DNA of 64,000 bases from Spartinivicinus ruber (lineage in GTDB: Bacteria; Pseudomonadota; Gammaproteobacteria; Pseudomonadales; Zooshikellaceae): contig NZ_CP048878.1 in NCBI RefSeq assembly GCF_011009015.1, positions 2,331,001 through 2,395,000 of the forward strand. Reading direction: 5' to 3'. Within the stretch, counting starts at the first letter, position 1; every line of letters starts with the position of its first letter. The notes beneath the pieces are model-generated. The model was not told where the DNA came from and searched no databases. It worked only from the letters and a program-made list of their open reading frames with translations. Positions 46,944 to 62,329 of the stretch are shown here, in pieces. The position numbers and the translations under genes were made by a program.

Positions 46944-47016
46944 CCTTCAAAGCAACCTCAGTTAATAATACGAATTCCCACCAAAACGTCTTTCCCGTAC
47001 TACACTAGATGTGTTT

Positions 47017-47040
47017 CCTGTTAACAGGCCCTAGGCTGTT
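47017..47040. repeat. Palindrome and hairpin after fliK
   Basis: CCTGTTAACAGG at 47017-47028 is a perfect 12-bp palindrome; AACAG..CTGTT at 47023-47040 can also form a hairpin with CC/GG extension. It lies at the junction of the flagellar and gas vesicle parts. It could be a weak terminator or a regulator site. Confidence 0.4.
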
Positions 47041-47071
47041 GAAAAAGAACAAAAAATAAAATCAGTGCCTG

Positions 47072-47089
47072 ATATGGAATACCCCATAT
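47072..47089. promoter_or_regulatory. Palindrome ATATGG-N6-CCATAT upstream of the first gas vesicle gene
   Basis: Perfect 6-bp arms with a 6-base spacer, about 50 bases before the ATG at 47139. A related TATGGA-N6-TCCATA lies upstream of gvpA. Both share TATGG...CCATA, so the same regulator, perhaps the GvrA-like one, might bind both; spacing between the shared parts differs by two bases. Confidence 0.4.
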
Positions 47090-47138
47090 ATATTAGCGTT
47101 TGTGATAGCTTCATCTGGAAGAGATACTCGTTACTAAC

Positions 47139-47753
47139 ATGAACAATACACATGAAACCACCGTTGCTAATCGGGTCATTATTCAAATTCCAATTATTCA
47201 TACTCAGATTGATCTAGGGAGTTTAGCTGCTTCGGTCCGTGAACAAAAAATTAATCAGCAGGGACAACAGGCTTGGGATCAGCAGCAAGCTTTAATTATG
47301 AAAGCTTGGAATGAAATAAAACAATTTGTGCATAGTTTGCGACTTAATTTTAGCAAAGTGAAATTATATCAAGATGGCTTACCGGTATGTGGAAAAGAGC
47401 AGCAAATTGTTTGTGACTTGGCAGAGCAGGGCAGTATCAATCATCAGCTACTGTTGGATTTAATGGACAAAGGCGCGACATTGATGGGAACGGAGTCACC
47501 GGAGTTGTTACGTGAAGAGTATCAGTTAACCCAAATTGCAAATAATAGCGATCATCAGCAGCAATCAATCGCAAAGGCTAAGCAATTACTGCAGCTACGG
47601 GACCAGTTTATTGCGGAACGGATTAATGCAACCTTAGCGGAAAACGAAACAGCCGTCCTGTTTTTAGGTATGTTACATAACCTTGTAGGATTTTTACCTA
47701 ATGATATTCAGTTAATTAATCCAATTGCAGCTGCACAAAAAAGTAATGGCTGA
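47139..47753 (+). CDS. Gas-vesicle-linked protein of unknown function
   Basis: 204-residue cytoplasmic-looking protein that I cannot assign to a named Gvp family. The middle is polar and Gln-rich. The C-terminal third, RDQFIAERINATLAENETAV then LFLGMLHNLVGFLP, resembles the end of TraB/GumN-type proteins (R...A..I...L....VLF.G..H). The rest of that family's motifs are not seen. Its stop overlaps the start of the GvrA-like gene (ATGGCTGA), so the two are coupled. As I recall, gvpY precedes gvrA in the Serratia 39006 cluster, and this gene may take that place, but I see no sequence proof. Confidence 0.65.
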   Translation: MNNTHETTVANRVIIQIPIIHTQIDLGSLAASVREQKINQQGQQAWDQQQALIMKAWNEIKQFVHSLRLNFSKVKLYQDGLPVCGKEQQIVCDLAEQGSINHQLLLDLMDKGATLMGTESPELLREEYQLTQIANNSDHQQQSIAKAKQLLQLRDQFIAERINATLAENETAVLFLGMLHNLVGFLPNDIQLINPIAAAQKSNG

Positions 47754-49146
47754 GGGAAGTAGGGTGTCAGTTGCTGAAGAGGGTAAAGTACTAATTGTTG
47801 ATGATGACTTGGATATGTGTCAGATGCTGTGTTATTTGATGCAAACCCATGGTTACCAAACAACAACTGTACATGATGGCTATGCAGCATTGAAAAAGAT
47901 TAAGACAGTCTGGCCTGATGTAATGTTGGTTGATGTGCAAATGCCTGAAATGACTGGGATTGAATTGTTAAAGCAGGTTTTACAACAGCGACCAGCGCTC
48001 CCTGTGATTATGATTACCGGTCATGCAGGTGTTGCTGATGCAGTAGAAGTCATGCGAGCTGGCGCGGTGGATTATATTTCGAAGCCTTTTAATCATGAAC
48101 ATGTAATGCGGGTGATTCGTTGTGCGCTAGAACAGAGAAAACAAGCCACTGTTAAAGCCAGCTCAGCTATTGAAGTGGAAGCCCAGCTTCATCAACAAAT
48201 GGGGCCAAGTGAAGCAATTGCGCACATCGCTGCTGATGTCAGACGGGTAGCACAAACCAGTTTTACTGTAGTATTACAAGGCGAAACTGGTACTGGAAAA
48301 AGCTTGTTAGCCAGAACCATTCATGATGCCAGCCCACGTGCTAAAAAAAACTTCGTTGCTTTAGATTGTGGCGCTATTCCTGAAAGCCTGTTAGAAAGTG
48401 AGCTATTTGGTTATGAAAGGGGAGCATTTACGGGGGCTAACTGTCGTAAAGCTGGGCAGTTTGAGTTAGTACAGGGCGGGACATTATTTTTAGATGAAGT
48501 GGCTAATATGTCACTGTCATCTCAAATGAAATTATTATGTGCATTGCAGGATAAGGTGATTTTTCCGTTAGGTGGAGCCAAAGCTATTCCTGTGGATGTA
48601 AGGTTGCTGGCGGCTTCTAACCAAGATCTACGAGCTGCTGTCGCTAATGGTGAGTTTAGAGAGGATCTTTATTACCGGCTGAATGAATTCGCAATTAACT
48701 TACCAGCACTTCGTGAACGTTCTGAAGACATTTTGTTTTTAGCCGACAGGTTTCGTCAAGCTTCTAACCAAGAGTTGAAAAAATCTATCAATGGATTTTC
48801 CAAGGAAGCTCAATGCCAATTACAAACGTATGACTGGCCTGGTAATGTTCGACAATTACGAACTGTGGTGCGACGTGCAGTATTATTGGCAGAAGAGATG
48901 ATTACTGCACAGCATATTCAGCTTGACCCTCCTAAAGACAACGACATTATTCAAGTCCTTGATAAGGTACCCTATCAAGGACTTTCGTTGAAAGAAATTG
49001 TGAAAAAAAATACTGCATTTGTTGAACAACAGGTTTTAACTGAAGTATTAGCATTTACCAATGGTAATAAAGCAGAAGCGGCGCGTTTACTTCAGGTGGA
49101 CTACAAAACAATTCATACTAAGCTAAAAAGATATGGAATAGCATAA
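47746..49146 (+). CDS. gvrA: NtrC-type sigma-54 response regulator (GvrA-like)
   Basis: Transcriptional activator that works with sigma-54. An N-terminal receiver (LIVDDDLD, phospho-Asp in LVDVQMPEMTG at 63) is followed by an AAA+ domain (Walker A GETGTGKS near 179; sigma-54 contact loop GAFTGA near 226; Walker B GGTLFLDEV) and a C-terminal Fis-type helix-turn-helix (NGNKAEAARLLQVDYKTIHTKL). All parts are intact. In Serratia 39006 the NtrC-type GvrA activates gas vesicle genes. The start at 47746 overlaps the preceding stop. Its likely targets are the sigma-54 promoter before gvpA and perhaps those of fliK or fliL. Confidence 0.9.
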   Translation: MAEGSRVSVAEEGKVLIVDDDLDMCQMLCYLMQTHGYQTTTVHDGYAALKKIKTVWPDVMLVDVQMPEMTGIELLKQVLQQRPALPVIMITGHAGVADAVEVMRAGAVDYISKPFNHEHVMRVIRCALEQRKQATVKASSAIEVEAQLHQQMGPSEAIAHIAADVRRVAQTSFTVVLQGETGTGKSLLARTIHDASPRAKKNFVALDCGAIPESLLESELFGYERGAFTGANCRKAGQFELVQGGTLFLDEVANMSLSSQMKLLCALQDKVIFPLGGAKAIPVDVRLLAASNQDLRAAVANGEFREDLYYRLNEFAINLPALRERSEDILFLADRFRQASNQELKKSINGFSKEAQCQLQTYDWPGNVRQLRTVVRRAVLLAEEMITAQHIQLDPPKDNDIIQVLDKVPYQGLSLKEIVKKNTAFVEQQVLTEVLAFTNGNKAEAARLLQVDYKTIHTKLKRYGIA

Positions 49147-49186
49147 TCTCCCTTTCACTTGGGGTAGAAAAAATAGGAACTAGGTT

Positions 49187-49726
49187 ATGGCAAAGGATAA
49201 TGAGCGCGGTGGCGCTGGTGTGCATTTTGGCGGCATTTTGGAAGGCTTAAATGGGTTAGTGGAAAAAATGACAGAGCTGGCTGAAGCTGGCGAGCACTTG
49301 AAACGTACTGGTGAAATGGAATTCAAGCTCAAAGAAGGCCAAGAAGCAAAAGGAGTTTTTGGTTTTTCGGTAAAAATGGGGCTAGGAGAACAAGGTGATT
49401 CAGAAGTGCAGGTTGAGCCTTTTGGTAATGTATATCGTAATAAAAAGACTGGTAAAACCGAAATAAAAGACGTGCGTGAGCCCTTAGTAGATATTTTTGA
49501 AGAAGACGATCATGTGTTGTTGGTAGGTGAAATGCCTGGTATCAATCAACATGACTTAAAGTTGGAATTGAAAGACGACATTTTAATTCTTACTGCTGAG
49601 CGAGGTGATAAAAAATACCGTAAAGAAATGTTATTACCTGAAAGATTCAATGAAGACAGCATGACGGTTAGAGTCAAAAATGGAGTAGTGGAAATAAAGC
49701 TAGAACGTGTTAAGACGCCGACTTAA
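49187..49726 (+). CDS. gvpH: Hsp20-family protein of the gas vesicle cluster (GvpH-like)
   Basis: Small heat-shock-like chaperone. The alpha-crystallin domain occupies about residues 95-175 (VREPLVDIFEEDDHVLLVGE, MPGINQHDLKLELKDDIL, ending VKNGVVEIKLE), close in pattern to Hsp20. The N-terminal half is Gly- and Glu-rich (GGAGVHFGGILEGLNGLVEK), typical of gas-vesicle-linked GvpH. Likely role: keep GvpA-family proteins soluble before assembly. It stands between the GvrA-like regulator and the CDC48-type ATPase. Confidence 0.85.
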   Translation: MAKDNERGGAGVHFGGILEGLNGLVEKMTELAEAGEHLKRTGEMEFKLKEGQEAKGVFGFSVKMGLGEQGDSEVQVEPFGNVYRNKKTGKTEIKDVREPLVDIFEEDDHVLLVGEMPGINQHDLKLELKDDILILTAERGDKKYRKEMLLPERFNEDSMTVRVKNGVVEIKLERVKTPT

Positions 49727-49757
49727 GGGATAACATAAAAAGGACAGTGATAAACTC

Positions 49758-51905
49758 ATGGACGAACAACCTGATAAAGAAAAAAACTCCCATAAAGCTT
49801 TGACACTAAAAGTGGCAGAAGCGTTAAGCAAAGATGTTGGGCGTTCGTTTGCACGGATGGGGCCTGAGGATATCAAACAGTTGGGCATGGATGTAGGCGA
49901 TATTGTAGAAATATTTGGCAAGCGTCGTACTGTGGCTAAATTAATGCCAGCTTACAAGGAAATGCGGGGTAAAGGTCAGGTTCAGTTAGATGGTATTACC
50001 CGACAAAATGCGGGTGTTAAATTAGATGAACAATTGACTATTCAGCCAGTTCGAGCACGCCATGCAGAACGTTTGGTGATTGCACCGCTTACTGTTACCC
50101 CTAAACAACGAGATTTAGATTATATTTGCAATTTAGTGGATGGGTTGCCAGTAATGGAGGGCGATCGAGTTCATGTACCGTTATTTGGTCGTGGTTCAGC
50201 AGATTTTCGAGTTCAGAGCACAGTGCCACGAGGCGCGGTATTGATTAATCCCACCACAGAATTAATCATTGGTAAATCCCAGGAAAATGAAACCTCATTA
50301 ACAGCATCTTATGAAGATGTGGGGGGTTTAAAAAACCAATTACACCGCATTCGTGAAATGATTGAACTGCCCTTACGTTACCCAGAAGTATTCGAACGAT
50401 TAGGTATTGATGCACCTAAAGGGGTGTTATTACATGGACCACCTGGCTGTGGAAAAACCTTAATTGCACGGATTATTGCACAGGAAACAGAGGCCAACTT
50501 CTTTTCTGTCAGTGGTCCGGAAATTGTGCACAAGTTTTATGGAGAAAGTGAAGCAGCATTACGCAAGGTATTTGAGCAAGCCAGCAAAAAAGGGCCGAGT
50601 ATTGTTTTTTTAGATGAAATTGATGCGATTGCTCCTCGTCGTGATCAAGTAACTGGTGAAGTGGAAAAGCGGGTAGTTGCCCAGTTGTTAGCATTAATGG
50701 ATGGCCTGAATAAACGCAATAATGTAATTGTTATTGCTGCCACCAATTTACCTAATGCCTTGGATCCTGCCTTAAGGCGACCGGGCCGATTTGACCGGGA
50801 AATTGCGATACCGATACCTGATCGTCATGGACGGCTGGCTATTTTAGAAATTCATAGCCGTGGCATGCCTTTAGCTGAAGATGTTGACCTGGAACAACTC
50901 GCTGATAGCAGCCATGGTTTTGTTGGAGCTGACTTAGAAGCTTTATGTCGTGAAGCGGCAATGGTCGCCTTACGCCGTATTTTGCCGGATATTAATTTCA
51001 CACTAGAAGAAATTCCCTCTGAACAGTTGTTAACGCTCCAGGTCCAGATGGATGATTTTTTAGCTGCTATGTGTGAAGTCGAGCCATCAGCTATCCGTGA
51101 AGTGTTTGTTGAAGTACCCGACGTACATTGGGGTGATGTGGGAGGAATGGAAAATGTTAAAAAGAGTCTTAAAGAGGCCGTAGAGTGGCCACTCAAATAC
51201 CCTGAATTATTCCAGCAAGCTGGAGTAAGACCACCCAAGGGCGTGTTATTGGGTGGTCCGCCAGGGGTAGGAAAAACCTTAGTGGCCAAAGCCGTTGCTA
51301 ATGAAAGTGGGGTGAATTTTATCAGTGTGAAAGGTCCTGCATTAATGTCCAAATTTGTAGGCGAGTCTGAGCGGGCCGTGCGGGAGGTTTTTCATAAAGC
51401 CAGACAAGCTGCCCCTTGTATAATATTTTTTGATGAAATTGATAGTGTAGTGCCAGCACGCAGTGCGGCAGGAACAGACTCCCACGTATCTGAACGGGTA
51501 TTAAGCCAGTTTTTGGCAGAAATGGATGGTATCGATGAGTTGAAAGGAGTGTTTGTATTAGGCGCCACTAATCGTACTGATTTAATTGATCCTGCTATGT
51601 TAAGACCTGGACGGTTTGATCAAGTGGTAGAAATAGCATTGCCTAGTGCCTGGGATCGTGAACAAATTTTTACTATTCACCTTAACAATAAGCCGGTTGT
51701 ATCTAGTATTTCTGCTGCTAGCCTAGCGGATCAAACGGTAGACTTTAGTGGGGCGGATATTGCTGGTGTTTGTAATCAAGCGGCTATTGCTGCTATTCGG
51801 CGAGCTATTGCCACCATGGACAAGCCGGATACTATGCAAGTCTGTATTGAAGAAGCTGATTTCTCAGCAGCGCTGGAGGATACTTGGAAACATCGTCATG
51901 GCTAG
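49758..51905 (+). CDS. CDC48/VAT-type double AAA+ ATPase
   Basis: Two-ring unfoldase of the CDC48/p97/VAT group, 715 residues. An N-terminal double-psi barrel region (~8-90: LKVAEALSKDVGRSFARMGPED) and a CDC48_2-like domain (~95-180) are followed by D1 with Walker A GPPGCGKT near 227 and Walker B FLDEIDAIAPRRD, and D2 with Walker A GPPGVGKT near 499 and Walker B FFDEIDSVVPARS; Arg fingers appear as RRPGRFD and LRPGRFD. Such ATPases occur in some gas vesicle clusters. Its end overlaps the next gvpF/L gene by eight bases, so it belongs to the same transcript. Likely disassembles or remodels Gvp proteins. Confidence 0.92.
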   Translation: MDEQPDKEKNSHKALTLKVAEALSKDVGRSFARMGPEDIKQLGMDVGDIVEIFGKRRTVAKLMPAYKEMRGKGQVQLDGITRQNAGVKLDEQLTIQPVRARHAERLVIAPLTVTPKQRDLDYICNLVDGLPVMEGDRVHVPLFGRGSADFRVQSTVPRGAVLINPTTELIIGKSQENETSLTASYEDVGGLKNQLHRIREMIELPLRYPEVFERLGIDAPKGVLLHGPPGCGKTLIARIIAQETEANFFSVSGPEIVHKFYGESEAALRKVFEQASKKGPSIVFLDEIDAIAPRRDQVTGEVEKRVVAQLLALMDGLNKRNNVIVIAATNLPNALDPALRRPGRFDREIAIPIPDRHGRLAILEIHSRGMPLAEDVDLEQLADSSHGFVGADLEALCREAAMVALRRILPDINFTLEEIPSEQLLTLQVQMDDFLAAMCEVEPSAIREVFVEVPDVHWGDVGGMENVKKSLKEAVEWPLKYPELFQQAGVRPPKGVLLGGPPGVGKTLVAKAVANESGVNFISVKGPALMSKFVGESERAVREVFHKARQAAPCIIFFDEIDSVVPARSAAGTDSHVSERVLSQFLAEMDGIDELKGVFVLGATNRTDLIDPAMLRPGRFDQVVEIALPSAWDREQIFTIHLNNKPVVSSISAASLADQTVDFSGADIAGVCNQAAIAAIRRAIATMDKPDTMQVCIEEADFSAALEDTWKHRHG

Positions 51906-52755
51906 ATCGGCTGCAGAATTATTGCTACAAAATGATCAAGCGATTTATGTTTATGGTTTTATTGACAATATAGCGTTGCGAGAAGAAATTACTGTTGCAG
52001 GGATTGCAGGATTTCCAGTTTTTATTTATTACCATCAACAGTTGGCGGCTATTGTTAGTAAAGTGCCGATTGATCTCTTTACCGGGTTTGAAGCTGAAGC
52101 CAATTTGCAAAACCCTGAGTGGTTGACGCAACGGGCTTATCAGCATGAACAAGTGGTAGAGCAAGTTTGGCAGTATACACCTATTTATCCAGTGGGGCTG
52201 GCAACGTTATTTTCTTCTGCCACTCAACTGGTTGAGCAAATGACGTGTTACCAACGGGACATTATACAAGCACTGATCACATTTGCTAATTTTGATGAAT
52301 GGGCAGTAAAGGGGTTTCTTGATAAAAAACAAGCGCAGGAAAAACTATGGGAAACAACCTGTCAGCAACATCAAAATAAACTATCAAGTTCTGCTGGTAT
52401 ACGGCATTTGCAGGAACAGCGTTTGCGCCGAGAGTTTAGTAAACAGGTGAATACCTGGGTACAGCAAACTTGTCAGGAAGTCGCCACTGAGTTATCAATA
52501 TTAGCCCGTGAGTGGTGCCAGCGAAAAGTAGTAACTATGAGTCATATTACCTTAAATGGTGGCAGACAAGCTGAAAATATATTGAATTTAGCATTGTTGG
52601 TCGCAACAGACAGGCAAGATCAGCTGTTACAAATAATAGAAGACAGGAATAATTACTGGCAGAATTACGGATTACAGTTTACCTGCAATCGCTGGCCACC
52701 TTACAGTTTTTGCCAAGCACCTTTTACTACTGAGTCATTAACAGCCACCTTATGA
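51898..52755 (+). CDS. gvpF: GvpF/GvpL family protein (copy 1)
   Basis: Gas vesicle assembly protein of the GvpF/GvpL family, thought to bind GvpA and help nucleation. Hallmarks are the N-terminal AIYVYGFIDN and the C-terminal NRWPPYSFCQ (family W.PY.F). 285 residues. I start at the ATG at 51898, inside the end of the CDC48 gene; the frame is open further up but that region is fully inside the ATPase. It overlaps the next gvpF/L copy by four bases. Sequence is quite different from the other two copies, so they are probably not interchangeable. Confidence 0.88.
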   Translation: MARSAAELLLQNDQAIYVYGFIDNIALREEITVAGIAGFPVFIYYHQQLAAIVSKVPIDLFTGFEAEANLQNPEWLTQRAYQHEQVVEQVWQYTPIYPVGLATLFSSATQLVEQMTCYQRDIIQALITFANFDEWAVKGFLDKKQAQEKLWETTCQQHQNKLSSSAGIRHLQEQRLRREFSKQVNTWVQQTCQEVATELSILAREWCQRKVVTMSHITLNGGRQAENILNLALLVATDRQDQLLQIIEDRNNYWQNYGLQFTCNRWPPYSFCQAPFTTESLTATL

Positions 52756-53561
52756 AGTGTTTGTTGTATTGTTTATTTCATAATTTACAGGGAGCAGATG
52801 TATTAGTGGCATTGCCTGAGGGGGTGGAAGGTAACAAGGTATTTTTGGTTGGGCATCATGATATTTTTGGTGCGTATAGTTTTTATTCTGATAATCCTGT
52901 CCAGCAGACAAGCAGTTTAGTAAAAAAAATAAATAACTATCATCCTGAGCATAGCGAAGGGCAGGCTATTCATGATGCTTTAGTATTTAACCAGATAATA
53001 GAAATACTACATCAGCATTACGCGCTCATTCCAATGCGTTTTGGTTGTTGTTTTAATAGTGAACAAGAGGTAGTTACACACCTTAAACACTATTATCAAA
53101 AATATCTGCAAAAATTAACTGCGTTGGCTAACTTTACCGAACTTAGTATTAAGGTAATCTTACCAGTATCCATTATTAATGGGATAGCCGACGTTGACAT
53201 AGTTAATGGTAAACACTTTTTAGTGAAAAATAACTTTGCAACTGATGGTCAGTATGCAAAGGGAGGGGCGTATTTGCTGGAAAGAAGAGCTCACTATAAT
53301 CAAACGGTTAATGATGCAGTGGTAAATCACTTAGTAGCAGATATCAATAGCGCTTTTCACGGACTTTATAGCGAATATTGCTGGGAAACCAAGTCTCAAG
53401 CAGGCCAACAGGTGTTGTCAATTTATTACTTGGTTGCAAAAGAGTTAATAGAGTCTTTTAATATCGTATTCCAGCATTTAAATACAGAGCCAAATAGCTG
53501 TAAGTTATTACTGAGTGGACCTTGGGCACCTTATAATTTTGTAACCGACTCAGCTAGTTAA
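52752..53561 (+). CDS. gvpF: GvpF/GvpL family protein (copy 2)
   Basis: Second GvpF/L protein, 269 residues. Family marks: QIIEILHQHYALIPMRFGCC in the middle (the IPMRFG block of the family), KEGGxYL-like KGGAYLLERRAHYN, and the C-terminal GPWAPYNFV. The N-terminal half is more divergent than usual. It overlaps the copy before it by four bases. In Serratia two such copies (gvpF2, gvpF3) stand side by side in front of gvrB, and the same order is seen here. Confidence 0.9.
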   Translation: MKCLLYCLFHNLQGADVLVALPEGVEGNKVFLVGHHDIFGAYSFYSDNPVQQTSSLVKKINNYHPEHSEGQAIHDALVFNQIIEILHQHYALIPMRFGCCFNSEQEVVTHLKHYYQKYLQKLTALANFTELSIKVILPVSIINGIADVDIVNGKHFLVKNNFATDGQYAKGGAYLLERRAHYNQTVNDAVVNHLVADINSAFHGLYSEYCWETKSQAGQQVLSIYYLVAKELIESFNIVFQHLNTEPNSCKLLLSGPWAPYNFVTDSAS

Positions 53562-55131: not shown

Positions 55132-55134
55132 ATT

Positions 55135-55494
55135 TTGTGTAAAAAAGCAGAATATCTAGTCGTTGATGATGAGCCAGATATTGGCTGGGTAATGAAGCGT
55201 ATCTTAGGTTCTGCTGGTGGGGTAGTCGTCACATTACAAACAGGTGCAGAAGTATTGCCTATGATAGAAAAAAATCACTTTAGTCGTGTTTTTATGGACG
55301 CCAAATTACCGGATATTGAGGGGCTTGAATTAGCAAGAGAAGTGCATAAATTGATGCCTGAATTGCAAGTGGTCTTGGTTTCTGGTTATTATTATAAAGA
55401 TGACCCTACCATCCAAAAGGCCTTATCAGAAGGTTTGATTGATGATTTTATTGCAAAACCTTTTACTCATAGTGATATTTTAAAAATACTTTAA
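55135..55494 (+). CDS. gvrC: Single-domain response regulator (GvrC-like)
   Basis: Receiver domain without an output domain, 119 residues. VVDDEPD at the start, phospho-Asp in FMDAKLPDIEG at residue 55, VLVSGYY and FIAKPFTH complete the site. It starts with TTG at 55135, backed by GGGAG six bases before; no ATG in frame would keep VVDDEPD. It may act as phosphate sink or as a link to another protein, as for GvrC in Serratia. Last gene before the gvpA promoter region. Confidence 0.87.
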   Translation: MCKKAEYLVVDDEPDIGWVMKRILGSAGGVVVTLQTGAEVLPMIEKNHFSRVFMDAKLPDIEGLELAREVHKLMPELQVVLVSGYYYKDDPTIQKALSEGLIDDFIAKPFTHSDILKIL

Positions 55495-55563
55495 TTATAT
55501 TTTTGAGGATATCTCTTTAATACCTACTACTTTATTTGCTTGTCTATGGAATATAAACCCTAT

Positions 55564-55581
55564 TATGGATTTTACTCCATA
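55564..55581. promoter_or_regulatory. Candidate activator site upstream of gvpA
   Basis: TATGGA-N6-TCCATA, a perfect palindrome with a further half-site CTATGGA at 55544-55550. Its centre is about 140 bases before the predicted gvpA transcription start, the usual distance for an NtrC-type enhancer. Confidence 0.5.
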
Positions 55582-55648
55582 GCTTTTATTGGATAAATTG
55601 ATTTGGTCGTTATCATATTAGTTAGGTACAAGTATAAAAAACCTTGGA

Positions 55649-55686: not shown

Positions 55687-55702
55687 TGGCATCGCCTATG
55701 CT
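55687..55702 (+). promoter_or_regulatory. Sigma-54 promoter of gvpA
   Basis: TGGCATcgcctATGCT: GG at 55688-89 and GC at 55700-01 with the required 12-base step; two deviations from TGGCAC-N5-TTGCW. Transcription start expected near 55712, leaving a leader of about 74 bases before gvpA. Confidence 0.78.
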
Positions 55703-55716
55703 ACAGTGTTTTCATA

Positions 55717-55736: not shown

Positions 55737-55785
55737 TGATGGAGTAAAATTTTTTATGATTGAAAAATAAAATAGGGAGATTCAA

Positions 55786-56004
55786 ATGGCTACTATTCAA
55801 AAGTCAACTGACTCATCAGGTCTTGCTGAAGTTGTTGATCGTATTTTAGATAAAGGCATTGTTGTTGATGCTTGGGTTAAAGTTTCATTAGTTGGTATTG
55901 AGTTATTATCTGTAGAGGCTCGTGTTGTGGTTTCTTCAGTGGAAACTTATCTTAAATATGCAGAAGCAATTGGTTTAACCGCTAGTGCAGCAGCACCTGC
56001 TTGA
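55786..56004 (+). CDS. gvpA: Gas vesicle structural protein GvpA
   Basis: Main shell protein of gas vesicles. The 72 residues follow the GvpA pattern almost without gaps: [40 protein letters not shown] and [12 protein letters not shown], with a short Ala-rich tail. AGGGAG seven bases before the ATG is a strong ribosome binding site. It follows a sigma-54 promoter and leader hairpin and is followed by a GC-rich hairpin, as expected for a highly expressed first gene. No gvpC follows, in contrast to many clusters. Confidence 0.97.
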
Positions 56005-56014
56005 TGGTGATGAT

Positions 56015-56034: not shown

Positions 56035-56133
56035 GTATATACCCAAAGTGTAGAGCTTTAGAAAATAATATTAAAAAAGATAAATAATTATAGCCCGTGT
56101 AGTATTTGATCCTTTCTGGGGAGTGAATTGAAA

Positions 56134-57117
56134 ATGGTAAAAAATCAAGCCGGCTTTAGTTCGATGACTGCAACTAAATTACCAGTCAATCAAGATAAAG
56201 TGATTCCTACAGCAAGTGATAAGTTTGTTCTTACTTCTTATGTAGAAGAAATTGTTAAGCGGGCATTGAGCTACTTGGAAGCGGGCTATCCAGTGCACTT
56301 TGCAGGCCCTGCTGGTACAGGAAAAACAACCCTGGCATTTCATGTGGCTGCTTCAATTGGCAGACCTGTTACCTTGGTACATGGTAATGATGAATTTGGT
56401 AGTTCAGATTTGGTTGGTAGAGATGCAGGTTATAGTAAGAAACAAATTGTTGATAATTTTATCCATTCTGTAGTTAAACGAGAAGAAGAAATGATGCAGT
56501 TATGGGTAGATAACCGGCTTACGTCTGCCTGTCGCAATGGTGATACATTAATTTATGATGAATTTAATCGTTCCCGGCCTGAGGCAAATAATGTGTTACT
56601 CAGTGTATTATCTGAGGGGGTATTAAATTTACCTGGGCTACGACATATGGGCGAAGGCTATCTTGGTGTGCACCCAGAGTTTCACGCCATTTTTACCTCT
56701 AATCCAGAAGAATATGCGGGTACTCATAAAGCACAAGATGCCTTAATGGATAGGATGGTTACTATTAAACTTGACCATCTCGACTTAGAAACTGAAATAG
56801 AAATTGTCACAAAACAGTCAGGTATTGAAAGAAGTGATGCTCAACGTATTGTCAGAATTATGCGGACTTTAAGAAAAGCTAAAAAAAATAAATTTAAAAC
56901 CACTATTCGCTCGGCTATTGCGATTGCTAAAGTATTGGCTAGATCAGGTGGTCAAGCCTGTTGGGATAATATCAGCTTTCGTCGTACTTGTTATGACCTC
57001 TTTAATATTGTTACTGCAAATGCATCTGTCAACGAAACGATGAGAAAAGAGCAAGTTATTAATGAAGTAATACGGAAAGCCTGTTCAGTTAATCTTGTTA
57101 AGTTAGAAAAAAACTAG
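56134..57117 (+). CDS. gvpN: Gas vesicle AAA+ ATPase GvpN
   Basis: MoxR-like AAA+ ATPase needed for gas vesicle growth. Walker A AGPAGTGKTTLAFHVA near residue 57, Walker B TLIYDEFNRSRPEANNVLLS near 140, and FTSNPEEYAGTHKAQDALMDR as sensor region are characteristic of GvpN. About 327 residues. The ATG at 56134 is ten bases after GGGGAG; a TTG at 56128 is closer to it and may be used instead. It is separated from gvpA by the GC hairpin and followed 14 bases later by a small coiled-coil gene. Confidence 0.96.
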   Translation: MVKNQAGFSSMTATKLPVNQDKVIPTASDKFVLTSYVEEIVKRALSYLEAGYPVHFAGPAGTGKTTLAFHVAASIGRPVTLVHGNDEFGSSDLVGRDAGYSKKQIVDNFIHSVVKREEEMMQLWVDNRLTSACRNGDTLIYDEFNRSRPEANNVLLSVLSEGVLNLPGLRHMGEGYLGVHPEFHAIFTSNPEEYAGTHKAQDALMDRMVTIKLDHLDLETEIEIVTKQSGIERSDAQRIVRIMRTLRKAKKNKFKTTIRSAIAIAKVLARSGGQACWDNISFRRTCYDLFNIVTANASVNETMRKEQVINEVIRKACSVNLVKLEKN

Positions 57118-57131
57118 TCAGGAGTATTATC

Positions 57132-57443
57132 ATGGGTATCCCAACAAAACCAAGACTTGGAATGGCTGATATTAAAACAATGGGCGGTAGAGTTAATCAG
57201 CAGCATTTAAGCTACCAGTCTTACTTTAAATTAGGTGCTTTAGAAATTCAAAAAATGAGAAAACAAAAAGAACGTGAGGCAGCTATTTCGCGAATTGAGC
57301 ATATTGATAAATGTTTAGATCAAATTAATAATGAGTTAAATGAGTTGAGGAATCAATTAAGTAATGAAACTGACATGTTACAGAAAAAAGACTCAAAAAT
57401 AAGTCAACTTTCATTATCTAATGGTTTGCAGATTAAATACTAG
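57132..57443 (+). CDS. gvpV: Small coiled-coil gas vesicle protein (GvpV-like)
   Basis: 103 residues. An N-terminal polar part (GIPTKPRLGMADIKTMGGRV) leads into a strongly charged coiled coil at ~38-92 (KMRKQKEREAAISRIEHIDK and on). In the Serratia 39006 order gvpN is followed by gvpV, a small protein of unknown role, and this gene takes that place. It has none of the 33-residue repeats of GvpC, so it does not replace GvpC in a recognisable way. The symbol rests on position and size. A stretch of about 290 bases without a gene follows. Confidence 0.65.
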   Translation: MGIPTKPRLGMADIKTMGGRVNQQHLSYQSYFKLGALEIQKMRKQKEREAAISRIEHIDKCLDQINNELNELRNQLSNETDMLQKKDSKISQLSLSNGLQIKY

Positions 57444-57731: not shown

Positions 57732-57959
57732 ATGAAAATTAATTGTACTTCCTGTGGCCATAGCATTGATCTGGGTACAAATTATGATAACTATCATGGA
57801 CCGGTAAAATGTTGGGTATGTTCTGCCTTGCTTGAATTGAGGGCTGAAGCTGGTCAGGTTAAATCTGTGGTGCCACGTTCACGGGTATCAGAGCCACAAC
57901 ACCAACACTCAGAGGAGTCTTTATCACCTGCTTCTACCACCAAGCGCTTCATATCATAG
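57732..57959 (+). CDS. Zinc-ribbon-like small protein of the gas vesicle cluster
   Basis: 75 residues, not a known Gvp family to me. CTSCGHS at residue 5 and CWVCSA at residue 27 give two CxxC pairs with a 18-residue gap, a small zinc-ribbon. The C-terminal half is polar and Ser/His-rich and probably disordered. AAGGAG precedes the ATG by nine bases. It lies seven bases or so before the gvpF/L copy 3, so it is translated with it. It may bind a partner protein or nucleic acid during vesicle assembly; this is inference. Confidence 0.75.
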   Translation: MKINCTSCGHSIDLGTNYDNYHGPVKCWVCSALLELRAEAGQVKSVVPRSRVSEPQHQHSEESLSPASTTKRFIS

Positions 57960-57969
57960 GAGTGCAATG

Positions 57970-58746
57970 ATGACAAAGCGTAGTCAACGTAGTGGTAAAT
58001 ATATATACGCTTTAAAAGCAGCTACAGACAAACAACAGGTGCCGTTAAAAGGTATTAATAAAGCATCTGTTTATACTGTAAGTCATGGTAAGGTTGCTGC
58101 AGTGGTTAGCGATATTTTATCTCCTAAGGCAAGGCCGGAACGAAGAAATTTAGCTGCTCACCGAGAAGTGCTTAAGTATTTTACTGAGGCAGAAACTGTA
58201 TTACCCATGCGTTTTGGTGTTATAACCAATAGCACCCAATCAATTCAGCAGATGCTAACCAATAATGAGTCACTTATTGTAAATGCACTTAATGAGTTAG
58301 GTGGCAAAGTAGAAATGGGGCTACGAGTTAAGTGGAAAGTGGGTAATATTTATGAATATTTTGTTAATCATTATCCGCAACTCAAGGATGCAAGAGACCA
58401 GCTATTGATTGACCAGAAAGGCAAATCAACACTTAAAAATAGAGATGAAAAAATAGCAATTGGTAGTTTATATGAAAAACTGTTGAATCAAGAACGCGCT
58501 GCTCATCAGCAAATAATAGAAGCAATGTTACAGCCTTGTTGTCGCAAGATAAAAACACTTCCTCCGGGTAATGAATTTGAAATAGTCAATTTAGCCTGTT
58601 TGGTTGATCGAGAAAATCTTGATGATTTAGAGCAGTATATTAATGATACAGCCACACAACTGAGTAATGATTGTCATATTGACTTTACTGGTCCGTGGGC
58701 TCCTCATAATTTTGTTGATCTGGATTTAAAAGTGCTGGCAAGCTAG
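57970..58746 (+). CDS. gvpF: GvpF/GvpL family protein (copy 3, GvpF1 position)
   Basis: The most typical GvpF/L copy of the window, 258 residues. KYIYALKAATDKQQVPLKGI at the start, the central LPMRFGVITNS block, the MGLRVKWKVGNIYEYF strand, and the C-terminal FTGPWAPHNFVDL are all family marks. AGGAG supports the ATG at 57970, with another ATG three bases before it. It is followed by gvpG, as in most clusters. Confidence 0.94.
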   Translation: MTKRSQRSGKYIYALKAATDKQQVPLKGINKASVYTVSHGKVAAVVSDILSPKARPERRNLAAHREVLKYFTEAETVLPMRFGVITNSTQSIQQMLTNNESLIVNALNELGGKVEMGLRVKWKVGNIYEYFVNHYPQLKDARDQLLIDQKGKSTLKNRDEKIAIGSLYEKLLNQERAAHQQIIEAMLQPCCRKIKTLPPGNEFEIVNLACLVDRENLDDLEQYINDTATQLSNDCHIDFTGPWAPHNFVDLDLKVLAS

Positions 58747-58768
58747 TGGGAAATTAGGAGGCTGTAAT

Positions 58769-59080
58769 ATGTTTTTAATTGATGATCTGCTGCTAGCACC
58801 TTATAAAGGGGTTAAATGGATATTTAAAGAAATTCACCGGCTTACTCAAGAAGAGCTTGAAAATGAGTCTGAGCAAATTACGCAAGCATTAACGGAATTA
58901 TACAGAAAACTAGAAGCAGGTGAAATTACGGAAGAAGAATTTGATGATGGGGAGCAGCAGTTGCTTAATCGATTGGATGAAATTGATGAAATGCTCAATC
59001 CGTCTGATGAAACATTGGAACATGGTGAAGCTGAACCTGAAGACATGACTGAGATAGAGCAGGAGTCCAGGGATCAGTAA
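58769..59080 (+). CDS. gvpG: Gas vesicle protein GvpG
   Basis: Small acidic accessory protein, 103 residues. FLIDDLLLAPYKGVKWIFKE at the start is the GvpG signature, followed by a helical acidic part (LYRKLEAGEITEEEFDDGEQ, LLNRLDEIDEMLN). The C-terminus is strongly acidic. TAGGAGG supports the ATG. Found between gvpF and the second gvpA-type gene, its usual place. Thought to take part with GvpF/L in assembly. Confidence 0.95.
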   Translation: MFLIDDLLLAPYKGVKWIFKEIHRLTQEELENESEQITQALTELYRKLEAGEITEEEFDDGEQQLLNRLDEIDEMLNPSDETLEHGEAEPEDMTEIEQESRDQ

Positions 59081-59173
59081 TCCATTCTAAAAAAACAAAC
59101 CTTTGATTTTTAGTCACTTGCCTTATTATTAATAAGGTTGAGTGAATTAAACTAATTTATTTTTAATAAATTG

Positions 59174-59398
59174 ATGGCTTTCAAATCCCAAGAACAAACA
59201 TCATTTGTCTTAGAAGATACTGAACGGCTTACCATTTGTGAGACATTGGATCGAATTTTAAATAAAGGTGCCGTGGTAGCAGGTGAAGTCACTCTGTCAG
59301 TAGCGAATATTGAGCTTATTCACCTTAGTTTGCAATTAGTACTCAGCTCAATTGAAACAGCAAGACAACATCAAATTAGCGGAGATAAGTCCAACTAA
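59174..59398 (+). CDS. Second GvpA-family protein (GvpA2/GvpJ/S type)
   Basis: 74-residue minor GvpA-like protein. ICETLDRILNKGAVVAGEVT then LSVANIELIHLSLQLVLSSIE follows the GvpA fold, but the strand [11 protein letters not shown] is changed to VAGEVTLSVAN, a feature of GvpJ/GvpS/GvpM proteins that start or cap vesicles. The ATG at 59174 is used; a TTG directly before it adds one residue. The stop overlaps the gvpK start by one base. Confidence 0.9.
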   Translation: MAFKSQEQTSFVLEDTERLTICETLDRILNKGAVVAGEVTLSVANIELIHLSLQLVLSSIETARQHQISGDKSN

Positions 59399-59769
59399 TG
59401 AGCCAGCAAGCTAAAGTGTCGTCTGACTATTTGGCGGATTTTGTTGATATAGTAACAACAGAGTGGTCTGATCAAAAAGAATTGTGCCAATCACAACAGC
59501 CTGCTAATCAACGGATTAATGTGGATGCTGGTCAGGTAAAAAATGGTTTAGGCCAGTTGGTATTAACTTTGGTTAAGTTGTTACATGAACTGTTGGAGCG
59601 TCAAGCGATTCGTCGAATGGATGCTGGTTCTTTAACTGAAGAAGAAATAGAACAGCTAGGCATTGCCCTGATGCAGCAAGCAGAAGAAATTGATCGATTA
59701 TGTGAGGTATTTGGATTAACTGAGGAAGATTTAAACTTGGATTTAGGACCGTTGGGTCAATTATTATAA
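59398..59769 (+). CDS. gvpK: Gas vesicle protein GvpK
   Basis: Accessory protein essential for vesicle formation in several systems. 123 residues. The core RINVDAGQVKNGLGQLVLTL, VKLLHELLERQAIRRMDAGS, LTEEEIEQLGIALMQQ and the end EDLNLDLGPLGQLL are diagnostic of GvpK. Overlaps the second gvpA-type gene by one base. Confidence 0.96.
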   Translation: MSQQAKVSSDYLADFVDIVTTEWSDQKELCQSQQPANQRINVDAGQVKNGLGQLVLTLVKLLHELLERQAIRRMDAGSLTEEEIEQLGIALMQQAEEIDRLCEVFGLTEEDLNLDLGPLGQLL

Positions 59770-59816
59770 TTCTTCATGCAGAGTCGAGGTCCCCATGGTT
59801 GGTAAGGAGCAAACAA

Positions 59817-60194
59817 ATGGCATTGCATAATCAGCAAGGCCTTCGTCACTCGACGGAAACTACGTCAGTTGCTGACTTATTGGAACGGATTCTTGATAAA
59901 GGTATCGTTATTACAGGCGATATTAAAATAAAACTGGTCGATATCGAGCTGCTCAGTTTAGAAATTCGTTTAGTCGTATGTTCTGTTGATAAAGCGGTAG
60001 AACTCGGATTAGACTGGTGGAGGAATAATGCGTCTTTGCAAAGTGCCACTTCACAATGGCAAACTAATCAATTACCAACCAGTCAAGTTGAAAAAGCAGA
60101 TATTTCAGCACTCTCTGCTGATGTGCAGCAAAGCTTACAGCGAATTGATGAGCGTTTGTTAATGCTTGAAAAAAAAAACAACAATAATAAATAA
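59817..60194 (+). CDS. Third GvpA-family protein with extended tail (GvpA3/GvpJ/S type)
   Basis: 125-residue protein: the GvpA-like domain (~16-66: [40 protein letters not shown]) is followed by a polar linker and a short coiled coil (~98-120) ending in KKNNNNK. The GDIKIKLVDIEL strand resembles GvpJ/S. AAGGAG eight bases before supports the ATG at 59817 over a TTG at 59799. It is the last gas vesicle gene; the next gene is convergent. The C-terminal run of Lys and Asn codons is A-rich and could be slippery. Confidence 0.9.
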   Translation: MALHNQQGLRHSTETTSVADLLERILDKGIVITGDIKIKLVDIELLSLEIRLVVCSVDKAVELGLDWWRNNASLQSATSQWQTNQLPTSQVEKADISALSADVQQSLQRIDERLLMLEKKNNNNK

Positions 60195-60231: not shown

Positions 60232-61116
60232 TTAGCTTTTAGGTAGCCAGAGAGCCACTTTCTTTTTATTGGTGCTCAACCATCGTTTGGCGCTTTCTTC
60301 TGGAGTCATCCCACTATTAATCCACACCATAACCTGGGCTATATCAGTTGGGGTCCACTCAAATGTATCTAATATATAGGCTGCTTCTGGCTTCTCTGTT
60401 TTTAGACCTTTTCTTGCAATGGTATGAATAAACTCTTGTTTACCATAAACTCCTTTGGGATCTGCCAAATATTTCAGGTCAAACTTGGCGAACTTCCAAT
60501 GAGGGGTCCAGCCTGTCACTACAATGGGTTTATTACTGTTAATTGCTGTTGATAGTGCTTTGGTCATTGTGGCGCCACTACCTTCAATTACTTGATAGTT
60601 AAGGCCATATTCGGTGATTGCCTGGTGAGTTTTTTTCATTAAACCTGCGCCAGGGTCAATGCCAATAATTTGGCCCGACAGCTCGTTAGTCATCGAATTA
60701 AGCTCTGTAATAGAGTTGATGGGTAGATTAGAAGGCACAACTAAGCCAATACGAGTGCCTTTTAGGTTTGGGCCATAGTCATCAACTTGTGCCTGATGTT
60801 GTTGTAGATAGTGAGCGTGAGTACTGGGTAGCCAAGCAGCCACCATGGCATCGGCACTACCCTCAGCGACACTTTTCCACATAACATCAGCAGAGACTGG
60901 CTTTATAGACACCTGGTAGCCATAAGAAGATAACAATGCTGCAATTACATGGGTACTGGCAATTTCACTGGCCCATTCAACATAGACTAATGCCAGTGGG
61001 CCTTTGGGCTCTATGGGAACTGCTTTTTCTTCTGGCTCTTCACCACAAGCGGTAACTAATAACAATAAACTGACGGTGATGAGTATGCGCAATAAATAAA
61101 TGGGGAAAAGCCACAT
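60232..61116 (-). CDS. Glycine betaine/choline-type ABC substrate-binding lipoprotein
   Basis: Binding lipoprotein of the OpuAC/ProX group. A signal peptide ends in the lipobox LVTAC near residue 24, so it is membrane-anchored. The domain starts ALVYVEWASEIASTHVIAAL and has the aromatic ligand-box residues expected (AWLPSTHAHYL, GWTPHWKFAKFDLKYL, MVWIN). No permease or ATPase gene is beside it. BetI, the regulator of choline-betaine genes, diverges from it, so it is probably osmotically or choline controlled. It may serve a transporter encoded elsewhere. Confidence 0.87.
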   Translation of the reverse strand: MWLFPIYLLRILITVSLLLLVTACGEEPEEKAVPIEPKGPLALVYVEWASEIASTHVIAALLSSYGYQVSIKPVSADVMWKSVAEGSADAMVAAWLPSTHAHYLQQHQAQVDDYGPNLKGTRIGLVVPSNLPINSITELNSMTNELSGQIIGIDPGAGLMKKTHQAITEYGLNYQVIEGSGATMTKALSTAINSNKPIVVTGWTPHWKFAKFDLKYLADPKGVYGKQEFIHTIARKGLKTEKPEAAYILDTFEWTPTDIAQVMVWINSGMTPEESAKRWLSTNKKKVALWLPKS

Positions 61117-61456
61117 GGTTTTAGCCCGAATGTTCTGAAATTTGATAAACAGGCTTAAGACAAGTTATTACAACCTTCAAAGTACTAGTCCCTTGATTTC
61201 ACTGGATCATCTGCACATTATCTGTGGTTTGGTGAAACATTTGGGTTAATACTCGTTGGGCCTGAATAAACTATAGCACTTGACGGGTAAAGTGACTTTT
61301 AAAAATGTAATTAACATGACAAGCTGGTTTCATGTATCATGTTGAGCTTTAATTAAATAAGCAATATTTTGATTGCTCAGTTAATAACATTTAATTAAGA
61401 ATAAATGACTGGGTAATTGAGTTTGATATTTTTATGAGAAGATAGGAACTAACTGT
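61117..61456. promoter_or_regulatory. Divergent intergenic region between binding lipoprotein and betI
   Basis: About 340 bases without a gene, holding both promoters. ACATGA-N10-TCATGT at 61314-61335 is an inverted repeat that may be a regulator site; it does not look like the BetI operator I remember from enteric bacteria. Nothing else stands out. Confidence 0.45.
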
Positions 61457-62050
61457 ATGCCAAAGCTTGGAATGGGGCCAATACGGCGTAAACAATTAAT
61501 TGAAGCAGTATTAAATTGTATTGATGAGTGGGGGTTGTCTGAAACCACCACACAGCGAATCAGTAAACAAGCCCAGGTATCTGCAGGTATTATTAATCAT
61601 TACTTTTCTGGTAAAGATGGTTTGTTGGAAGCTGCAATGCGGCAAATCCTGAAAGACCTGCAACTTGGTGTGAAAGCCAGGCTGTCGTCTATTTCAAATG
61701 ATGACTTTAAAGCGAGAATTCACGCCATCATTGATGGTAATTTTGACCAGACTCAAATGACTTCCGCTGCTCGTAAGGCTTGGCTGGCTTTTTGGGCTGA
61801 AGCCATGCATAAGCCGGAATTGCGCCGATTGCAAAATATTAACGCGAAACGGTTGGTGAGCAATTTGACCTTTGAGTTAAAAAAAGCTTTTCCGCGTTCT
61901 CAGGCACAGCATATGGCTGAAATTCTTGCTGCGGCTATTGATGGTGTTTGGCTGCGTGAGGCACTTAATGTTACTCCTAATGATGTGACCACCTCACGAA
62001 AAAAAGTAGAGGATGTTTTTCACTTATTTCTTGCCCAATATAGTCATTGA
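61457..62050 (+). CDS. betI: TetR-family regulator BetI
   Basis: Choline-responsive repressor of betaine synthesis genes. 197 residues. MPKLGMGPIRRKQLIEAVL is nearly the BetI N-terminus of E. coli, followed by the helix-turn-helix (TTQRISKQAQVSAGIINHYF) and the BetI C-terminal domain (RKAWLAFWAEAMHKPELRRL, DGVWLREALN). The betA and betB genes normally next to it are missing here. It lies between a betaine-type binding protein and fliL. Confidence 0.93.
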   Translation: MPKLGMGPIRRKQLIEAVLNCIDEWGLSETTTQRISKQAQVSAGIINHYFSGKDGLLEAAMRQILKDLQLGVKARLSSISNDDFKARIHAIIDGNFDQTQMTSAARKAWLAFWAEAMHKPELRRLQNINAKRLVSNLTFELKKAFPRSQAQHMAEILAAAIDGVWLREALNVTPNDVTTSRKKVEDVFHLFLAQYSH

Positions 62051-62251
62051 ATCAAATTAACTTGATTTATCTTATTTCCTCGACGATAGGCAAGTTTGTC
62101 AATCGTCAATTTTTCTCTTATTGCTTACCCCTTTAATTGCCAAATTATTGGTATAGCCTGAGTTTTTATTTCTATAATTTTTTAAGCAGATCTGAAGATC
62201 GTTGTCAAAGTAAAGGAGTTACCATTTTTTTGTAGCAATCAATGAATTCAA

Positions 62252-62267
62252 GGGCATGGCATTTGCA
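62252..62267 (+). promoter_or_regulatory. Sigma-54 promoter of fliL
   Basis: GGGCATggcatTTGCA has GG at 62253-54 and GC at 62265-66 with the correct 12-base step; it departs from consensus at the first base and at position 6. Transcription would start near 62278, about 50 bases before fliL, giving the fliLMN part its own promoter. Confidence 0.75.
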
Positions 62268-62329
62268 TCTGTACCATTAACATTTGATTTCAAATCACAA
62301 TAAATGTTGGATTATTGACGGGTAAGGGA

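Follow-up and report, generated by a model that had tools for sequence, protein, structure and literature searches.

In the red marine bacterium Spartinivicinus ruber, a gas vesicle (GV) gene cluster lies inside the flagellar gene cluster, between fliK and fliL, and this nesting is real, inherited and unusual. We propose, with a probability of roughly 0.77, that it represents an acquired and self-regulated GV cluster of known type that became lodged at a transcription-unit boundary, without functional coupling of the two organelles.

Results

The gas vesicle cluster separates two flagellar gene blocks

The window analysed here, a stretch of 64,000 nucleotides drawn from the S. ruber genome (G000), holds two blocks of flagellar genes on the plus strand. 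The first (36780..46943) comprises fliE, fliF, fliG, fliH, fliI, fliJ, a partner-switch module and fliK, a gene order common to the members of the genus. All ten proteins matched Pfam families above cut-off (FliE, YscJ_FliF, FliG, FliH, ATP-synt_ab with T3SS_ATPase_C, FliJ, STAS, SpoIIE, Hpt and Flg_hook). The plus-strand partner-switch module between fliJ and fliK is made up of STAS, RR-SpoIIE (PP2C) and Hpt proteins, and fliK (45651-46943, +) was recognised by Flg_hook at 8.7e-23. The second block (62315..64000, identified by Pfam and position) starts with fliL at about 62330 (open reading frame from 62315, TTG start) and continues with fliM (62896) and fliN (from 63879) on to flhB; fliP, fliR and flhB lie past the window end, flhB ending 3904 bp beyond it. 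FliL (PF03748, 3.6e-24), FliM, FliP, FliR and FlhB were identified by Pfam, and fliN and fliO are named by position.

The interval between the two blocks measures 15345 bp, which agrees with the gap of about 15.3 kb given in the preliminary description, and 15666 bp and 15427 bp in two further Spartinivicinus genomes (G001 and G002, respectively). It is occupied by the GV cluster (47139-60194, +), followed by genes for a binding lipoprotein and BetI, as also described before. To call this cluster complete is fair: it encodes three GvpA-family proteins, GvpN, three GvpF/L copies, GvpG, GvpK and GvpH, and it also has three regulatory genes and one for an AAA ATPase of the CDC48 type.

The cluster has the gene content of a two-unit gas vesicle locus

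All genes of the GV cluster are encoded on the plus strand. The regulator operon comes first and opens with an uncharacterised GV-cluster protein (47139..47753), which matches no Pfam or NCBIfam family and has homologues at 33 of the 80 other GV loci that we surveyed. It is followed by an NtrC-type sigma-54 activator (47725..49146; Sigma54_activat 1.2e-64, REC 2.6e-30, HTH_8; homologues at 48/80 loci), which is GvrA-like and owes this name to gene order. Next are gvpH (49187..49726; Hsp20-like, HSP20, GvpH 22.5 bits against a cut-off of 22), the CDC48-type AAA ATPase gene in the GvpZ position (49758..51905; TIGR01243 885 bits, cut-off 803; 48/80 loci) and two gvpF/L copies (51748..52755, PF06386 8.7e-39; 52752..53561, PF06386 3.8e-31). 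A GvrB-like PAS histidine kinase (53656..55131; HATPase_c, HisKA, PAS; 49/80 loci) and a GvrC-like receiver-only response regulator (55135..55494; Response_reg 1.5e-20; 43/80 loci) complete the unit. As in the Serratia type, the sigma-54 NtrC activator, the PAS kinase and the receiver thus share an operon with GvpH, an AAA protein and two GvpF/L proteins. We also considered whether activator and kinase might be misplaced flagellar regulators and rejected this, because both recur at GV loci without flagellar neighbours; the match to the Pfam family FleQ reaches only 1.1e-6 and falls on the receiver domain.

The second unit is preceded by an imperfect inverted repeat (CTATGGAATA...CTCCATAG; 55544..55582, +), conserved in the three genus genomes and a candidate activator site, and by a sigma-54-type site (TGGCATCGCCTATGCT; 55687..55702, +). 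Equivalents of the latter are found in all three genus genomes, so that a predicted sigma-54-type promoter before gvpA, as in Serratia, is present as a conserved sequence site. Such a site also occurs in 48 of 67 other gvpA upstream regions, compared to 2.45 expected from base shuffles. The operon itself encodes the shell protein GvpA (55786..56004; PF00741 9e-16), GvpN (56128..57117; TIGR02640 341 bits, cut-off 267), a coiled-coil-like protein named for the GvpV position only (57132..57443; homologues at 78/80 loci), a small CxxC...CxxC (zinc-ribbon-like) protein without Pfam or NCBIfam family (57732..57959; 44/80 loci), a third GvpF/L (57967..58746; PF06386 4e-57), GvpG (58769..59080; PF05120 3e-15), a GvpS/J-type GvpA paralogue (59171..59398; PF00741 1.6e-16), GvpK (59398..59769; PF05121 1.8e-33) and a further GvpA paralogue with a C-terminal extension (59799..60194; PF00741 2.7e-16). 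GvpA is thus accompanied by GvpN, GvpF/L, GvpG and GvpK, each above its Pfam or NCBIfam cut-off. No GvpC family match was obtained among the 19 interval proteins scanned, three of which match no Pfam family at all.

Judged by its genes alone, this is a standard proteobacterial GV cluster of known type. Serratia sp. ATCC 39006 is described as having a gvpA1 operon, with gvpA1 under a sigma-54 site, and a gvrA-gvrC operon, with gvrA having its own promoter (PMC4982088). Set against this published text rather than against the sequence, the Spartinivicinus cluster has the same two units and the same order of gene kinds, but its regulators come first, it sits between fliK and fliL, and a GvpC is not recognised. 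By their description, two other published GV loci share the inverted operon order (PMC4982088); the available parts of that text do not mention flagellar neighbours for them.

The two genes next to fliL are of a different kind. One encodes an OpuAC-type choline/betaine-binding lipoprotein on the minus strand (60232..61116, -; PF04069 2e-64; TIGR03414 sub-threshold at 130 bits, cut-off 379), the other a betI-type TetR repressor (61457..62050, +; TIGR03384 229 bits, cut-off 201). We rejected both as members of the GV unit: no open reading frame of the 80 GV loci has either as best match, and hence they are not a general GV feature.

Predicted transcription signals at the borders of the cluster

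The consensus TGGCACN5TTGCW was applied in the search for sigma-54-type sites. One such site with a single mismatch lies upstream of fliK (TGGCATAGCCATTGCT; 45544..45559, +) and has equivalents in all three genus genomes; as for the site before gvpA, its promoter activity is predicted from sequence.

Between fliK and the regulator operon, a gap of 195 bp (46944..47138, +) holds a conserved block at about 46973-47017, a putative promoter that contains the -10-like CTACACT (47000-47006). With up to one mismatch allowed, a 15-mer from this block (46994-47008) has a single match per Spartinivicinus genome, an exact one in the fliK-GV gap, and none in two Zooshikella genomes. Since its reversed control also gave few matches (0, 0, 3, 1 and 1 across the five genomes), the single occurrence alone means little. 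A plus-strand terminator-like site was found in this gap neither in G000 nor in G002, and one weak site in G001. Scans of the region returned 43 sigma-70-type promoter sites versus 47.0 in shuffles and 14 terminators versus 13.1; as these counts are no higher than, or barely above, those in shuffles, both scans carry little weight. On the other side, a conserved block is found in the betI-fliL gap (62051..62329, +), along with a sigma-54-like site at 62252 that is weak. The -12 GC of this site is absent from G001 and G002, and the candidate fliL promoter is not conserved across all three genomes.

The arrangement is conserved across the genus

Gene order is identical in all three Spartinivicinus genomes, which represent three species and two of which are 4-contig assemblies. 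FliK of the other two is 66-67% identical to that of S. ruber. The preliminary description had named an assembly error at 46.9 or 62.3 kb as grounds for dismissal. We rejected an artefact joining two loci, whose probability is negligible, because three separate genomes agree at both junctions; in addition, the S. ruber genome was assembled from PacBio and short reads according to the species paper (PMC7484904). Support for such an error was not found.

Between G000 and G002, dN/dS of the GV genes is at most 0.25 wherever calculable, with dS saturated for the second gvpF/L copy, the receiver and the gene in the GvpV position. GvpA is 100% identical between the two at a dS of 0.78. By these sequence comparisons, the GV and flagellar gene sets are both under purifying selection. 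The words 'gas vesicle' and 'float' are absent from the main text of the species paper, and its available parts report no flagellum for S. ruber (PMC7484904).

Flagellar junctions are opened in the family, also by other genes

Within each block, gene order is that of the Pseudomonas/Oceanospirillales-type polar flagellar cluster, from which Spartinivicinus differs by inserts at fliK|fliL and flhB|flhA. That fliK is directly followed by fliL in known clusters proved true outside the family: the gap is 4-640 bp in 32/32 loci having both genes, out of 37 loci of other families; in the remaining five, the stretch examined does not contain both genes. Within the family, fliK and fliL of Zooshikella G003 are 28182 bp apart with unrelated genes between them. 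In the fragmented assembly of Zooshikella G004, both sides of the junction match to near contig ends, which is consistent with an opened junction. Unrelated genes at this position in relatives had been put forward as an argument against a meaningful nesting. This argument holds by half: neither of the two Zooshikella genomes, the closest relatives, has an intact fliK-fliL junction, while more distant relatives keep it.

The flhB|flhA junction is opened by 42571, 45259 and 14821 bp of unrelated genes in the three Spartinivicinus genomes, compared to 77 bp in Zooshikella G003. The insert in G000 includes cytochrome genes and an IS1595 transposase. As flhB|flhA is opened as well, GV genes are not the only ones to have entered the flagellar cluster at a boundary.

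Other gas vesicle loci lack flagellar neighbours

The survey covered 80 other GV loci, with 188 further GvpN relatives outside it. Searches with 13 proteins (phmmer) and 12 family HMMs revealed flagellar genes in the examined flanks of none (0/80); in 62 of these loci, the sequence on one or both sides extends far enough to reveal a fliK-GV-fliL arrangement, and the HMM control is not independent, the models having been built from the same order-level loci. FliM is encoded in 24 of the 80 surveyed genomes, by coordinate comparison never on the GV contig. A general GV-flagellum association was thus not found among the 80 loci. Co-location does not recur in independent lineages within these flanks, and the sister genus has its GV cluster elsewhere. 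A published report of GV-flagellar co-location was not found in a search mainly of literature outside subscription, of which PMC11974857, PMC5374385 and PMC7484904 were available in part.

In Zooshikella harenae (G003), the GV cluster lies on a contig (C212) other than that of the flagellar cluster; no GvpA match was obtained in Zooshikella G004. The Z. harenae cluster shares the order of the Spartinivicinus one for 16 of 17 genes, with the small CxxC gene unmatched. It differs in lying outside the flagellar cluster, in a GvpN of 53% identity and in forming a separate branch in a 6-gene tree. The locus carries a second identifier (L165); so as not to count it twice, the trees include it as G003 only.

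Discussion

Spartinivicinus and Zooshikella probably acquired their GV clusters separately, as the 6-gene tree suggests. Alternatively, a GV cluster may have resided at fliK|fliL in the family ancestor and later been moved and replaced in Zooshikella, which we regard as improbable. The junction is opened in both genera, their GV gene order is the same, and in a 4-gene tree with more rows (66, after G183 was dropped from 67 for its long branch) a common GV clade for the Zooshikellaceae passes the AU test (p-AU 0.169). Against this, the 6-gene tree rejects a common clade of both genera (p-AU 2.56e-6), with the caveat that 12 of its 31 rows, including the three Spartinivicinus, have a composition outside the model assumption. 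These rows were taken from 48 and consist of four from the family of the window, 13 Pseudomonadota and 14 hand-chosen others, with G190 and 16 further rows omitted. The same tree places the GV proteins of Z. harenae with rows from Methylococcaceae and Chromatiaceae, and the missing GvpA match in G004 also speaks against an ancestral cluster.

We thus favour the following scenario. A two-unit GV cluster, regulator operon first and gvpA operon second, would have been acquired by the Spartinivicinus lineage, presumably by horizontal transfer, have landed between separately promoted fliK and fliL transcription units and then been inherited by the genus. In Pseudomonas fluorescens, FleQ likely regulates both fliK and fliLM, which the published list gives as distinct genes or clusters (PMC6120874), and by analogy fliK|fliL may be a transcription boundary in S. 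ruber, too. An insertion at such a boundary would have cut no operon. Most likely, the NtrC-type activator (47725), with the PAS kinase and the receiver, would drive the sigma-54 promoter at 55687 via the inverted repeat at 55544, and flagellar control would stay separate from GV control. For the fliE-K and fliL-flhB span alone, the chance that at least one of 25 insertions lands there is about 6%; it is higher if all flagellar genes count, and a chance landing is not absurd. Several observations count against this scenario, besides the 4-gene tree: the arrangement is intact across a dS close to 1 or higher, as would equally be expected under a selective benefit, no conserved terminator lies between fliK and the regulator operon, and the fliL promoter candidate varies among the three genomes.

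The preliminary description had suggested that the nesting has functional meaning, with reference to inverse regulation in Serratia 39006. That flagellar motility and GV production are inversely related in Serratia is in print (PMC11778176), and CtrA is described to co-activate the fla1 flagellum and gas vesicles, a link in trans (PMC11974857). A functional meaning of the nesting itself is unsupported in view of the 80 GV loci, the Zooshikella junction, the flhB|flhA insert and the standard GV regulators. One form it could take, possible on the sequence yet in our estimate unlikely, is that read-through from the sigma-54 fliK promoter across the 195-bp gap reaches the GV regulator operon, whereby the expression of late flagellar genes would prime or tune GV production. 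Both units are on the same strand, the sigma-54-type site before fliK and the fliK-GV-fliL order are kept in all three genomes, and a plus-strand terminator-like site is lacking or weak. This missing terminator is weak evidence, as the scan finds hardly more sites than shuffles do. Moreover, the -10-like block may give the operon its own promoter, as for gvrA in Serratia (PMC4982088), and no other GV locus is so placed in the flanks examined. In a further, also unlikely reading, the insertion would have been kept because it couples the organelles, either by fliK read-through feeding the operon of the GV sigma-54 activator and kinase, with the effect that cells completing the hook would be primed to float, or by a shared demand for sigma-54 that makes swimming and floating compete at this one locus. 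The gap at 46944-47138 is the place where a real coupling could lie.

The locus of a floating organelle inside that of a swimming organelle, kept in three species, comes with natural controls in the sister genus and in the second opened boundary. The placement is unusual and worth recording, and it calls for caution against inferring function from nesting alone: insertion at probable borders between transcription units can bring about the nesting of two motility-related systems.

A gas vesicle cluster between fliK and fliL in Spartinivicinus

The S. ruber genome comprises 6,687,090 bases in four contigs, with a chromosome of 6,361,125 and a plasmid of 141,078 bases; the window corresponds to C1:2331001-2395000. 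The flagellar genes fliE-J, a STAS/RR-SpoIIE/Hpt module and fliK end at 46943 (Pfam matches above cut-off for all ten proteins), and fliL-fliM-fliN follow from about 62330 onward to flhB, which ends 3904 bp beyond the window (fliN and fliO were named from position). The preliminary description of a complete gas vesicle (GV) cluster inside the flagellar cluster was borne out: between fliK and fliL lie 17 genes of the GV cluster (47139-60194), followed by a minus-strand OpuAC lipoprotein gene (60232-61116) and by betI on the plus strand (61457-62050).

Scanning a species-genome collection gave 268 relatives of GvpN, and the analysis took in the best 80 of their loci, that of Zooshikella harenae among them. 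Among these best 80 of 268, homologues of the NtrC-type activator, PAS kinase and receiver occurred in 48, 49 and 43 loci, respectively, where the kinase and activator counts contain some partial or paralogous matches. Two window proteins belong to no Pfam or NCBIfam family: a 204-aa protein encoded directly 5' of the activator gene (47139-47753; homologues in 33/80 loci) and a 75-aa CxxC...CxxC protein (57732-57959). The latter has homologues in 44/80 loci and so is probably a small, hitherto unrecognised GV accessory protein. The choline/betaine-type binding lipoprotein and betI (60232-62050) adjoin the GV genes in all three Spartinivicinus genomes, and no ORF in the 80 other GV loci (best 80 of 268) had either as best match. 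Betaine alters turgor, and turgor alters vesicle collapse.

Gene order was identical in the three genomes analysed from the genus, with fliK-fliL intervals of 15345 bp (S. ruber), 15666 bp (G001) and 15427 bp (G002). Between S. ruber and G002, dS was about 1 or higher for most genes (saturated for gvpFL2, the receiver, the GvpV-position gene, fliH and fliJ), dN/dS was at most 0.25 in all GV genes where computable, and the GvpA protein was identical at a dS of 0.78; the top dN/dS of the G001-G002 pair was 0.38 (gvpS). Low dN/dS across a dS of about 1 or more indicates that GV and flagellar gene sets are both maintained. No flagellum is reported in the S. ruber description (PMC7484904), whose main text lacks 'motil', 'gas vesicle' and 'float'; floating and swimming are here predicted from genes. 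A small contig of G001 (C77; L057 4153-5454) carries an additional gvpA together with a homologue of the GvpV-position gene, with no gvpN match there.

Two flagellar gene boundaries are opened by different genes

FliM was present in 42 of 56 relatives, and 39 FliM loci were compared (37 from other families and two from Zooshikella; the three Spartinivicinus genomes were excluded). Both fliK and fliL were present in 32 loci, always on the same strand and 4-640 bp apart, so that the supposed usual arrangement, fliK directly before fliL, holds outside the family. The seven loci without both genes in the stretch examined were the Zooshikella loci (G003, G004), G036 (at a contig start), G037 (no fliL found), G027 and G053 (neither found) and G048 (fliL without fliK). 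The synteny comparison proposed beforehand thus gave a divided answer: the junction is intact in the 32 loci of other families and opened in Zooshikella by other genes. In Z. harenae (G003), a single contig carries fliK and fliL on the same strand with 28182 bp between them; ten proteins from this gap were scanned and eight had Pfam matches (Hsp20, two solute-binding proteins, hybrid kinase, HlyD, ketoacyl synthase, alanine racemase N-domain and phosphofructokinase). The second Zooshikella genome (G004) aligns to both sides of this insert, nearly up to where its contigs end (C23 to base 231, C41 to base 1967). The junction is thus open in both genera of the family, each with different cargo.

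The flhB-flhA distance is 77 bp in Z. harenae and 42571, 45259 and 14821 bp in S. ruber, G001 and G002; about 14.6 kb adjoining flhB is common to all three Spartinivicinus genomes. Six proteins of the S. ruber insert, which lies beyond the window end (L060 4520-19667), were scanned: three were of multihaem-cytochrome type, one had ferredoxin domains, one was an IS1595 transposase and one had no match. Since flhB-flhA was opened by unrelated genes, boundary insertions in this flagellar cluster are not specific to GV genes. Outside the flagellar cluster, the S. ruber chromosome carries three more FlhA-family export gates (PF00771; 3.91-4.02 Mb), perhaps type III secretion systems; G001 has two additional gates, G002 three and each Zooshikella genome one.

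Predicted control of the GV genes and possible read-through from fliK

The activator-kinase-receiver order of the window is that published for gvrA, gvrB and gvrC in Serratia (PMC4982088), where GvrA and sigma-54 control gvpA1 and read-through between the two GV operons was not detected. The same study reports the window's inverted operon order in Psychromonas ingrahamii and Desulfomonile tiedjei. Sigma-54-type sites lie 5' of gvpA (55687, two mismatches) and 5' of fliK (45544, one mismatch), each at the same place in all three Spartinivicinus genomes. Such a site occurred at most 250 nt 5' of gvpA in 48 of 67 other gvpA genes (expected 2.45). The 28-kb region contains ten, several of them intragenic and not conserved, versus a base-shuffle mean of 2.8 and maximum of 6 (200 shuffles). 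The sites at 55687 and 45544 and an inverted repeat at 55544-55582, a candidate activator site, are control elements predicted from sequence matches.

In the genus, fliL is preceded by a conserved block and by a weak sigma-54-like site, whose -12 GC is lost in G001 and G002; a better site precedes fliL in each of the two Zooshikella genomes, at differing distances. The fliK-fliL site is likely a transcription boundary, because of these upstream sites, the conserved sigma-54-type site of fliK itself and the separation of fliK and fliLM in Pseudomonas fluorescens, where fliE, fliK, fliLM and flhA are given as separate genes or clusters with likely FleQ regulation (PMC6120874). The sole concrete route to functional coupling would be read-through from fliK into the GV regulator operon, which we consider unlikely. 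Between fliK and ORF 47139, G001 showed a weak plus-strand terminator-like site and S. ruber and G002 showed none, in a scan whose sites across the region were not more numerous than in shuffles. The same gap holds a conserved block with a -10-like CTACACT, and we take this block to be a putative separate promoter of the regulator operon. A 15-mer of this block is found a single time in each Spartinivicinus genome, in this position, and in neither Zooshikella genome; its uniqueness carries little weight alone, as a reversed control pattern was also rare (0, 0, 3, 1 and 1 matches across the five genomes).

Origin of the nested arrangement

Flagellar genes were found beside GV genes in none of the best 80 of 268 loci, either by phmmer with 13 flagellar proteins or with 12 family HMMs; the latter matched 22-82 times each in order-level loci, from which they were built, so this control is not independent. 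Available flanks extended 9.2 kb or more upstream of gvpN in 44 of the 80 loci, 5.3 kb or more downstream in 54, both in 36 and either in 62. FliM was present in 16/50 and 8/30 of the genomes bearing these best 80 of 268 loci, and lay on the GV contig in none of the 24 by contig and coordinate comparison. Within the class, GvpK was above cut-off in 4 of 369 genomes (7/369 at E 0.001). In one of the three non-window genomes above cut-off (G190), the FliI ATPase query matched, to be read in light of its many ATPase relatives, and eight other flagellar queries had no match.

In a four-gene tree of 67 rows, the three nested clusters group together and Z. harenae falls in another starred group. Uniting the Spartinivicinus and Z. 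harenae clusters was not rejected with four genes (66 rows, p-AU 0.169) and was rejected with six (31 rows, p-AU 2.56e-6), in an alignment where 12 of 31 rows, including the three Spartinivicinus, deviate from the letter make-up assumed by the model. We favour separate acquisition by the two genera, without regarding the matter as settled. Plasmid A of S. ruber (141 kb) carries another GV gene set, diverged and rearranged (G000:C2, about 49.1-56.9 kb), which comprises gvpA, gvpN, three gvpF/L, gvpG, gvpS, gvpK and gvpA2 (L058 14148-18828; L059 381-1885); CDC48, NtrC-type activator and PAS-kinase homologues had no match in the 60 kb searched around this set. The set adjoins IS240-type and DDE_3 transposase genes, which is consistent with GV gene movement in the lineage.

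The fliE-K and fliL-flhB runs make up 0.25% of the chromosome. If 25 insertions occurred independently in genomes with flagella, the chance of one or more landing there would be about 6%, a lower bound with the remaining flagellar genes uncounted. A single such event, in one genus, does not argue strongly that nesting was selected for, and the functional meaning initially suggested for it is not borne out by the comparative evidence. The GV cluster itself is of a familiar kind; its location is what is unusual.
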